The translations under genes were made by a program, and so were the position numbers. The notes under the pieces were generated by a model. It was not told where the DNA came from and searched no databases. It saw only the letters and a list, made by a program, of their open reading frames with translations. Shown in pieces: positions 3,638-54,661 of a DNA stretch of 64,000 bases; position 1 is the first letter of the stretch, and every line of letters starts with the position of its first letter. Location: contig JAJTWR010000311.1 of NCBI GenBank assembly GCA_021613335.1, positions 1,437,881 through 1,501,880 on the forward strand, read 5' to 3'. This DNA comes from Whitmania pigra. Taxonomy: Eukaryota > Annelida > Clitellata > Hirudinida > Haemopidae.

Positions 3638-4575
3638 CATCAATTAGACTTAACCCAAGTCATTCCATACCATTTCATATAAACCGAAACCGTTCCTTAA
3701 ATTGGCATAACGTTCGTGCTATTACCTCATGTAACAATGAATGATCTAATAAACAATACTGAAATTTATAATTTCTTTTAAAACTTAAAAACTACAAAAA
3801 TATGCATGAAGAGTTCAATTCAAATTATCAATCATTCTCTCAAGACCTTATAAAATGCTAATCTCATACTGAATACATTTATTAATAAGTATATATTAAA
3901 AAAAGGATTGTTTAACACTTTTAACAGAAAAAAAAACAGTGTGAACTGCATAATGCTACAGTTTGTCGATTTTCCCAGCCTCAATCACTGGGTTCAATTT
4001 GCGGATTCTCTCTCTCTCCTCTGCTTTGTAGTCGAACGTGCATCCGTGCGTGTCCACGTAGCGGTGCAGACCGCAGTACACTCCTCCACACCGACAAGCA
4101 ATTCCTGTCAGACCAACTTTCTTGTTGCATGTATGACACCTGTTGCTTTTCTTCTTCTTCTCTTCGACTTGCATCGGCTTGTCCTCAACTTTCTGGTTGA
4201 TTTCTATTTCCGTATTTTCAACTTCGATTGGTTGTGTTGACTTCGGGTTATTCATATGATCCTCTTTTGGCTTAAGCTCCGAATGTTCCACCTCCTTCTT
4301 TATCACTGTCTTGAAACATTGCGAGCACATTCCTCGGAAGTGTGGTGAGCCAAAAAAACCACACCCATTCGCGCACATTTGAGGTGAATCTGTAGCCATG
4401 TCGATGTTATATTATATCTTAGATTTGTTTTGAGTGTCCTGTATTATTGTTATTTTCGCCTACATTTTCTCTAAGTCCTGCATTTTTATCGTTTTCAAAA
4501 GATTCTGAATCTAATTTAAACTATATTTTTTATCACATTAAATTTTAATAGAAATCATAATTTGAAGTTTGTAAT
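3638..4575 (-). repeat. Tandem duplication unit, copy 2 (contains A20/AN1 gene)
   Basis: This is the partner of 2151-3089. Similarity ends abruptly after the shared stretch ending AATTTGAAGTTTGTAA on the gene's 5' side. It is graded on the 3' side, where about one base in ten differs. Confidence 0.85.
3956..4399 (-). CDS. A20/AN1 zinc-finger protein, copy 2
   Basis: The protein is identical over 147 residues to the product of 2471-2914, with the same A20 (C9-C28) and AN1 (C88-C120) ligands. The nucleotide sequence of the open frame also looks identical, including synonymous sites, and the antisense frame is preserved as well. Both copies keep the same 5' flank of roughly 100 bp, so both could be transcribed. 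Recent duplication, gene conversion or an assembly duplicate would each explain the identity. The diverged flanks argue against a simple assembly duplicate. Confidence 0.9.
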   Translation of the reverse strand: MATDSPQMCANGCGFFGSPHFRGMCSQCFKTVIKKEVEHSELKPKEDHMNNPKSTQPIEVENTEIEINQKVEDKPMQVEEKKKKSNRCHTCNKKVGLTGIACRCGGVYCGLHRYVDTHGCTFDYKAEERERIRKLNPVIEAGKIDKL

Positions 4576-10281: not shown

Positions 10282-13200
10282 ATGTCGGACGCACACTTTT
10301 TCAAGGTTTGTACATTTAATCAAACGATGCTATAATTAAATCTAATGTAATGTTATTAGTATTGTTACAAATCTGATTTAGTTCAGTAATGTTTATGAGC
10401 ACGTTATAAGTGTTGGTTATTTAAGCTGATTGAAATAGTCGAAAATATAGAGCGTGTTGATTTGACATGATGTTACTTAAAATTTTTTTTTGCCAGGGTA
10501 CGTCAACGGACCAAGATAATAGGTTTGCCGACAAGAAGAAAAAGTTGATGAAGACTATGAAATTTCCAGATAATGTCGATAAAAAAGTGGACATGACCAA
10601 AGTCAACTTGGATACTCTCAAACCTTGGATCACTAAAAAAATAACTCAGATGTTAACAATCGAGGATGATGTAGTGACTGAGTTTGTCTTTAATCAACTC
10701 GAGGCAACAGTTAGTTCAGTTTTTTTAGATTTATGATCGTTAAATTAATGAGCAGCTTTTTCAACCAGATGTTTATTCCGATAGCATCCAGATGGTAAAG
10801 AAATGCAGATCAATCTCACTGGTTTTTTAAATGCCAAAAATGCCAGACTCTTTATGGAAGAACTCTGGGACTTATTGCTCAGTGCCATGGAGAATGTTGG
10901 AGGAATTCCTGCTGTCTTCTTGGAGCAGAAAAAGGAAGAAATAAGAAAGCGACAGGTACAGATACGATTCAGTGATTAAATTTGAAGTATGTTCTAAATG
11001 GTTTTTTTTCCAGATGGAACAGGAAAAATTAAAAGAGTTGGAGAGATCAGTAAGAGAAAGGTTGGAAATCTGTCATTTATAAAGTTGCTTTTAACTTTTT
11101 CTAATGTAAAGGAGAGGTCCGATGATGTAACGTTTCTTTTGATCATTCATGATTAAGAAATACTCTAATTTTTTGCTGAGGACCTGAATTCTATCTCAAG
11201 ATCTGATGTATTAAGTTAATGTGTAGTTGACACACATTGTTAACATAATTTACATCAGATCTTACTGTCTGTTTAAGGATATTCTGAGTGTATACTAATC
11301 TTATGGTTGTAAGGTTTTTCTATAATTGAGTGCTTTGTGATGTTTATCTGAAAATGACCTGCTGTGATTTTGAATCAGTTGCACTCTAATTTTTTACTGA
11401 AAGCACATTTTTTATGAGTAAATAAGTCACTGCATTGTCATCTTCGTGATGATAACACCAATAGTGATTCGAATGATGTTTACAAATCTACTCTAATTTT
11501 TTTCTGACTGGAAGATGACAAGCAGTATTGTTTATGTTAAATTTGTTATTGTTACCATGATGATGTTGCAATTATGAATGCAATAATAGGATATCAAGTC
11601 ACTAATTTATGGCTAGGGGAATAATGCATTTGGCTCAACTGGATGAAACATGCCTCATGATGATGTTTATAAAATGAATCACTGATTCTATAAGCAATAC
11701 ACTCTAATTTTTTACTGAGGGCTACAAAATTTCATCTAAATATACATTCAATGGATGTCTTCAGTTGTGACACTGTGATATATGAATGATTATATTTTGT
11801 ACATCATGTCACTGTAATTTTTCTCTGATTAGGAGATAATATTAGTAGTTAGATGAACTCCATTTGCTCTGTGATGAAGTATGTTAAATGAACACTAGTG
11901 ATTATAGAACTCAGTCACTCTAATTTTTTGCTGAGAGCAAGAGATTTATTTATACTTTATGTTTCATAGCCCATTTGTTGATGTCTTGTTTTGTCTTAAC
12001 TAGGAGTCGCTCCAAATCAAACGGGAGACACAAGAGAAGTTCCTCGAGGGACAAGAGGCTGTCTAAACAAGACAAATCTGCTAAAGATCATGTTAAGCAA
12101 CCAGAAAAAAGGGAAAATTCTAGATTTGATCAAAGGTTTGTAAATCATTTTGATTTTAAATGAGGTTATGATTATTGAGGTATTAATTTTTTTATTTACT
12201 TCACTTCAGCAAACCAAAAGCAGAGGTAGCAGAAGCAGTTTTGTCAACATCCCTTTCAGACATCAAACTACCCGGTGAGAGACATTTTGAAACGAATGCT
12301 GTAGATGGCAGTAATCCAGGACAAAGTAATAAAAATGAAACTAATGTCCAAAGTAGTTCAGAGATGACAAATGTGGGTAAGGCAGCTTCAGACAAGGAGG
12401 AAGGCAATGAAAGGCCGACCAAAAGGGATTCGTCTGCCGAGTCTTCGTCTGCTAAAAGGAGTAGGTCGAATAGCTTGAGAAAGAGAAGAACATCAACTTC
12501 CAGGAGAAGATCCATCTCTAGGAGGAAGCGATCTCCATCTCCGAGGTCTCGAAGGCGCAGGCGCTCTCCAAGCTACAGACAGAGGTCGAGGTCTCAAAGG
12601 AGGTCACCCAGAAGGTATTTTGACTTAAACCCTTGTCGTATCTTGCAATGTTCATTTGCTCATTTTATTTACATATTAACAATGCCCTTTATCCATGATG
12701 TTTTAGATATTAATATTGCTTTTTTAGGAGATCTAGGACTTCAGTTAGAAGACGATCACCGAGGAGAAGGTCGCCAATTAGGAGATCTAGAACTCCGATG
12801 AGGAGATCAAGGTCAATCAGGAGATCCAGGTCTCCTGTAATGCGACCTCGGTTAGGTAGGAAGAGGTCTCCTTCTCCTAGAAGGAGGTCAAGGTCACCTA
12901 TGCAGAAGGTTAGAAGGTCACCCATTAGAAGACCTAGGGATATCAGCAAAAGCAGTTCCTCATCTGAAAGTAGTCGGCCCATTGTGAGAAGGAGGGGCAG
13001 AAGTACTAGTAGTGATCAAGGACAAAGTTCATCTCCGGTTAGGAAAGAAGCCATACAAAAAGAAGACATGGAACCGGTGGAAGTAGCAAAGAGGGTGTAT
13101 AGGAAGAGGTCGCCTTCCAAGTCTTCTGCATCACCATCACCTCAGAAAGTGTTGACAAAAAGGGAAGTTCAAAAGAGAAGAGGTTCGACGTCATCTGAAA

Positions 13201-50100: not shown

Positions 50101-54661
<4,561 letters not shown>

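Follow-up and report, generated by a model that had tools for sequence, protein, structure and literature searches.

A tandem box C/D snoRNA gene array with one shared predicted 18S rRNA guide in an intron assigned to SRRM1 of the leech Whitmania pigra

What does a box C/D small nucleolar RNA (snoRNA) have to keep when its copies drift apart, and how would several such RNAs be freed from one and the same intron? Both questions are raised by a 64,000-nucleotide (nt) stretch of the Whitmania pigra genome (GenBank assembly GCA_021613335.1, contig JAJTWR010000311.1, positions 1,437,881 to 1,501,880 of the forward strand; the whole stretch is hereafter called the window and all positions are counted within it, unless stated otherwise), in which an intron assigned to the splicing-factor gene SRRM1 contains five intact box C/D snoRNA genes (copies 1, 2, 3, 5 and 7) together with the decayed remains of two more (copies 4 and 6). 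We consider it probable that this is an ancient tandem array, held in one SRRM1 intron, whose copies guide the 2'-O-methylation of the 18S ribosomal RNA (rRNA) adenosine equivalent to yeast A755. The boxes, the guide and the stems lie where the first-pass annotation of the window had placed them when it proposed a box C/D snoRNA array within SRRM1; of the seven snoRNAs that it counted, five stand as intact genes and two (copies 4 and 6) are relics.

Host intron and organization of the array

The array is housed by a single intron of 943 nt (11061-12003, plus strand), which opens with GT at 11061 and closes with AG at 12003. The exons on either side (11014-11060 and 12004-12135) join into one open frame that reads ...ERSVRERSRSKSNGRHKRSSS..., and stops are met both when the intron is read through and when the GT at 11050 is taken as the 5' splice site. 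A PWI domain (99 bits) is present in the hand-joined N-terminal protein, which also resembles SRRM1 chains whose structure is known (6ff4_Y, E 1.5e-48; 1mp1, E 2.5e-43). Among the matches listed (best 120 of 161) its best relative comes from Helobdella robusta, at 84% along 63% of the query; the other named annelid there, Capitella teleta, reaches 73%. Judged from its sequence, the intron is an SRRM1 intron, and, with splicing deduced from the reading frame, we find here two or more snoRNA genes (five intact ones) within one spliceosomal intron. Between the outermost copies and the splice sites there are 54 nt on the 5' side (copy 1) and 62 nt on the 3' side (copy 7), distances that we count in favor of the proposed array. 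A consensus-like 5' splice site, GTAAGA (11050-11055), lies 11 nt upstream of the one demanded by the frame; splicing from it would shift the frame towards an early stop, possibly giving an unproductive isoform.

All copies are on the plus strand. Copy 1 (11115-11185) has its C box ATGATGT at 11122, its guide at 11162-11174, its D box CTGA at 11176 and the terminal stem AGGTCC/GGACCT, and the same order of parts recurs in copy 2 (11330-11406; C box GTGATGT at 11337, guide 11383-11395, D box 11397, stem GTGCTT/AAGCAC), copy 3 (11435-11521; GTGATGA at 11446, guide 11490-11502, D box 11504, separated by 3 nt from the stem TTGTCATCTTC/GAAGATGACAA), copy 5 (11652-11722; ATGATGA at 11657, guide 11701-11713, D box 11715, stem GCCT/GGGC) and copy 7 (11863-11941; GTGATGA at 11871, guide 11917-11929, D box 11931, stem TTTGCTC/GAGCAAG). 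In these five the C box deviates by at most one mismatch (0-1) from RTGATGA, the D box is exactly CTGA, and ACTCTAATTTTTT ends one nucleotide ahead of it. The stems measure 6, 6, 11, 4 (one G-U) and 7 (one G-U) base pairs (bp) in copies 1, 2, 3, 5 and 7; the lengths given before hold for the first four, while copy 7 has one pair more than the six assigned to it.

The decay attributed earlier to copies 4 and 6 was confirmed. Copy 4 (11545-11624) retains a perfect C box (ATGATGA at 11557), its guide is degraded and its D box lost (a pseudo-D, CTAG, stands at 11613); a 7-bp stem may form 3 nt further in on each side, and the copy is missing from the 12 matches of model R1. In copy 6 (11766-11835) the C-like box carries two mismatches (GTGATAT at 11775) and the guide two changes (11811-11823), the D box is CTGA at 11825 and no stem is longer than 2 bp; this copy scores 16.2 bits with the same model, under three matches elsewhere in the window (16.9-17.5 bits).

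From copy 2 to copy 7 the D boxes follow each other in steps of 107, 109, 102, 110 and 106 nt, exactly within the 102-110 nt range described initially, and the D box of copy 1 lies 221 nt upstream of that of copy 2, i.e. roughly two periods. Midway between D boxes 1 and 2, a CTGA at 11284-11287 (plus strand) fits the ~108-nt period and is a possible, weak trace of a lost copy, the intron having 11 CTGA in all. By eye, the alignment also displays an ATGA ... TGATT-like pair as a possible internal C'/D', and the scan of a yeast-type 18S rRNA returned no D' guide conserved between copies.

Conservation of the working parts

Identity and covariation were counted in the five intact copies only, with relics 4 and 6 left out. 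The guide is identical in all 130 pairwise comparisons, in keeping with the claim of one shared guide, as is the D box in 40 of 40 and the C box in 58 of 70. The stretch from the C box to the guide agrees at 153 of 352 positions (0.43), and when realigned alone it reaches 0.439 against 0.454 +/- 0.043 after shuffling (38 of 60 shuffles being as high).

The stems behave differently from both, since their letters are identical in only 54 of 116 comparisons and pairing is nonetheless kept. In the covariation test 89.7% of 29 cells were paired, against 71.1 +/- 6.2% in shuffled data (0/500 as high), and the covariation score was 0.733 versus 0.352 (again 0/500), which upholds the compensatory stem changes noted in the first-pass annotation. 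Pairs altered on both sides amounted to five of six (19/500 shuffles as high) and further pair types to seven (95/500). Sliding the partner strand lowers stem pairing to 27-58%, and a stem score of at least 6, which 2.7% of random placements within this intron attain, is reached by four of the five intact copies; copy 5 scores 3.5, under this value, and 19% of random placements reach 4. The count is lowered by copy 3, which does not line up with the others in that alignment since the 3' strand of its stem begins 3 nt further on. We stress that with five sequences, picked for having guide and D box, the shuffle test yields no probability.

Considering that the working parts (guide, D box and stem pairing) are conserved and that the remaining sequence is at the shuffled level, the duplications look old. 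This is the pattern expected if selection had maintained each intact copy as a functioning C/D RNA.

Predicted 18S rRNA target

The guide was compared with a yeast-type 18S rRNA of 1800 nt (RF01960, 1817.8 bits, model positions 1-1831) present in a Planomonospora genome record (L032), where its sequence marks it as contamination by Saccharomyces-type ribosomal DNA (rDNA). A typed yeast 18S agreed with it in 819 of 819 aligned letters, and the yeast numbering fitted all ten modified residues checked (Am28 to Am619, plus Am796).

The guide pairs with yeast 18S 752-764, and its complementarity to the segment AAAAAATTAGAGTG was thereby verified: each of the five intact copies forms a duplex of 14-16 bp at 751/752 that contains no more than one G-U. 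In copies 1, 2, 5 and 7 this is the sole mismatch-free run of at least 10 bp (under the same G-U limit), whereas copy 3 has two further 10-bp runs outside the guide (at 261 and 990) and relic copy 4 has one (at 465). A second (D') guide to 18S was rejected, as such extra runs occur in copies 3 and 4 only and none is common to them. The duplex energy is -14.8 to -17.3 kcal/mol for the intact copies, -4.7 for copy 4 and -10.8 for copy 6, and the duplex starts 2 nt before the D box (in copy 3 directly before it, through a G-U). Applied to the yeast-type 18S, the D+5 rule gives A755 as the predicted target. The equation of this segment with the snR47/U36 site, made in the initial annotation, proved mistaken: those snoRNAs act at yeast Am619 (PMC5199042) and human Am668, and the array would act within 752-764, with A755 as the predicted residue.

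The target is identical in seven eukaryotic 18S sequences found as contaminants (three run through Rfam, four aligned to yeast only), which is no measure of conservation since they were selected by the target pattern. The records that carry them (L026-L032) are seven prokaryote genome records, and a scan of viral contigs for the 18S target gave none. As a separate observation, positions 6465-7088 of L019, a piece of the leech assembly, hold only the first third of an 18S rRNA, followed by AT-rich non-rRNA sequence, and represent a truncated rDNA piece.

Uniqueness within the genome and relation to known snoRNAs

Guide and D box together (ACTCTAATTTTTTNCTGA) have five exact matches in the 178-Mb assembly, all in the array. 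With up to two mismatches there are 110 (copy 6 included) against 160 for the reversed control, both counts, like that of the exact matches, being lower bounds; as a set, these looser matches are at chance level, given that the control yields more. The guide alone (ACTCTAATTTTTT) has 25 genome matches (reversed control 53), five of them within the array, and none of the eight sites read by eye among the 20 outside it (two share flanks) is followed by N-CTGA. Hence, dispersed copies elsewhere in the assembly were discarded, none carrying the exact guide and D box.

At gathering scores no Rfam family was found anywhere in the window, and assignment of the array to a family was dropped, the matches being sub-threshold only; the best of them in the intron was SNORD47 on copy 7 (30.4 bits, cut-off 50). 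The snR47/U36 (SNORD36) snoRNAs resemble the predicted role of the array in being C/D RNAs for an 18S adenosine and differ in their target (Am619/Am668 as opposed to 752-764); identity with them was rejected, as the intact copies reach at most 7 bp at yeast-type 18S 600-640 with up to two G-U, and copy 1, at 18.8 bits, falls short of the RF00049 cut-off of 30. The same resemblance holds for snR53/snoR53Y, and the target of snR53, Am796, lies within ATATATTAGCATGG, ~40 nt from that of the array; this identity was likewise set aside (at most 8 bp at 780-812 with up to two G-U), and the snR53/snoR53Y Rfam models gave 18.1-19.9 bits on copies 1, 2 and 7, below the cut-off of 43.

The suggestion that the arrangement looks undescribed must be narrowed, since introns with several snoRNA genes are known from rice, Drosophila and Plasmodium (PMC2780460, PMC2656528). 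Such clusters share with the array the presence of several snoRNA genes inside a single intron, whereas the array is distinguished by five intact copies with one guide and no other similarity detectable between the boxes, and by a splicing factor as host. The suggestion holds insofar as literature searches returned, among the matches listed, no report of this array or of any snoRNA in SRRM1, and a search for papers that combine the guide sequence with mention of snoRNAs had no match.

A second tandem C/D snoRNA cluster with closely spaced genes exists in the same genome, which we count in favor of the proposed array. It differs in consisting of four ~960-nt units with three different snoRNAs each, and it appears recent on account of the high identity between units (98.9-99.8% for units 1-3, about 90% for unit 4 as cut).

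The SNORD113/114 and SNORD115/116 families occur as one copy per intron of a noncoding host, unlike the array, in which all copies share one intron and an 18S guide. They are many tandem copies of one C/D family each, imprinted and orphan, with highly similar copies (PMC11028025).

Processing and possible function

In the mechanism that we propose, the spliced intron would be debranched and trimmed, small nucleolar ribonucleoprotein proteins would bind each C/D core, each RNA would pair with the 18S segment AAAAAATTAGAGT, and fibrillarin would methylate the nucleotide that faces the fifth guide position counted from the D box, i.e. the match of yeast A755; several copies would serve dose. Exonucleases alone would free the outer ends only (copies 1 and 7), so that the inner copies would need cuts in the spacers, or else a ~827-nt snoRNA-ended RNA would persist. 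The spacers measure 23-43 nt from copy 2 to copy 7; the one that separates copy 1 from copy 2 is 144 nt long and contains a hairpin with 13 perfect outer pairs at 11198-11263 (plus strand). Its folding energy is -26.6 kcal/mol over the 91 nt folded (z -4.1, for an element picked after being noticed), and its outer pairs have a probability of 0.6-1.0 in the fold of the whole intron. The sole genome match of the hairpin is itself, and it reaches no Rfam family at the gathering score (sub-threshold matches only). It is a possible endonuclease or pre-microRNA-like element, its size being similar to that of a pre-microRNA. Two snoRNAs sharing an intron can yield snoRNA-ended long RNAs (sno-lncRNAs), according to a review (PMC11028025), and the title of a 2025 article states that 'RNase III cleavage sites spread across splice junctions enforce sequential snoRNA processing' (PMC12508059).

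A methylation near the predicted residue may have been recorded in planarians. A Schmidtea RiboMeth-seq study (PMC11649923) counts Am755 among ten 18S sites that are fully methylated, and calls it distinct to planarians and altered after fibrillarin knock-down; its statement that the site is planarian-specific implies no human counterpart. Pairing planarian and yeast site numbers by inference (Am28 in both; Um1266/Gm1268 with 1269/1271; Cm1638 with 1639), the sites listed there, whose numbers differ by no more than a few nucleotides, make it suggestive that planarian Am755 lies in the A run or a few nucleotides from it. Human 18S is not known to carry this methylation.

Several observations weigh against an A755 methylation guide. 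The intron folded without proteins gives terminal-stem pairing probabilities of at most 0.07 for copies 1, 2 and 7 and 0.05-0.5 for copy 5, a strong stem forming in copy 3 only (0.78-0.81). Within the assembly, the leech's own 18S was found at model positions 4-605 only, and patterns for the target segment and for a downstream 18S stretch had no match; as the target stretch was not recovered, the target in Whitmania pigra is read from other eukaryotes. In the planarian study, Am755 failed validation by reverse transcription at low deoxynucleotide concentration followed by PCR (PMC11649923); at an exact -3 offset it would fall outside the six A, and it may be another residue than A755. Finally, A755 is absent from the yeast methylation list (PMC5199042).

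This last absence would also fit real C/D RNAs that chiefly chaperone pre-18S by pairing, or work on another RNA such as U6 or a messenger RNA, without guiding methylation at the A755 equivalent. The guide indeed pairs over 10 bp (two G-U, counted by eye) with the leech's own U6 at AGAAGAUUAG, at -7.2 to -8.9 kcal/mol in the intact copies. However, the duplex with 18S is much more stable (-14.8 to -17.3 kcal/mol), so U6 was rejected as main target; the place at which that duplex starts relative to the D box is typical of a methylation guide, and D box and guide are conserved exactly. We regard such a role as rather unlikely. The array might instead chiefly make a sno-lncRNA, or serve as a regulatory intron for SRRM1 splicing, with single snoRNAs as by-products. 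In its favor, an RNA with snoRNA ends is a product possible from two snoRNAs per intron (PMC11028025), both end copies are intact and both relics internal, a stable hairpin lies within the array, and the alternative GTAAGA would lead to an early stop. End-capping alone, however, would not ask for stems and guide to be kept in internal copies 2, 3 and 5, and we hold this explanation to be unlikely. Least of all do we favor a recent local repeat or transposon-like expansion with no function beyond one copy: the tandem spacing of 102-110 nt and the two decayed copies would agree with it, but the sequence outside the working parts is at the shuffled level, Tandem Repeats Finder reported no array, and guide plus D box are found nowhere else in the genome, which makes it highly improbable.

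Returning to an array that guides methylation at the A755 equivalent, what sets it apart is the retention of many same-guide copies despite the drift of all else, a site that seems lineage-restricted, a splicing-factor host and the problem of release. We also put forward, tentatively and with considerable doubt, a wider interpretation in which the array would be the gene set for a spiralian (annelid, flatworm) 18S mark at yeast A755 that is absent in yeast, with five copies for dose, and with endonuclease cuts, for which the hairpin 11198-11263 would be the landing site, freeing the inner snoRNAs; the whole would amount to an operon-like intron tied to the gene of a splicing factor. The locus offers a natural experiment within one intron, as its drifted paralogs reveal the parts that a C/D RNA needs, and it predicts a specific 18S methylation, lacking a yeast counterpart, that the planarian map may have caught. 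The release of several snoRNAs from one lariat thereby becomes a question that can be put to the test in leeches, animals suited to laboratory keeping.

Other features of the window

Two further duplications were noticed in the window. An open reading frame (ORF) with A20 and AN1 zinc fingers occurs in two copies (2369-2926 and 3854-4411; 151 amino acids identical) that are 1485 nt apart and reflect either a recent tandem duplication or a doubling in the assembly. Near-identical ORF stretches at 52117-52419 and 54103-54594 lie on opposite strands and constitute an inverted duplication.
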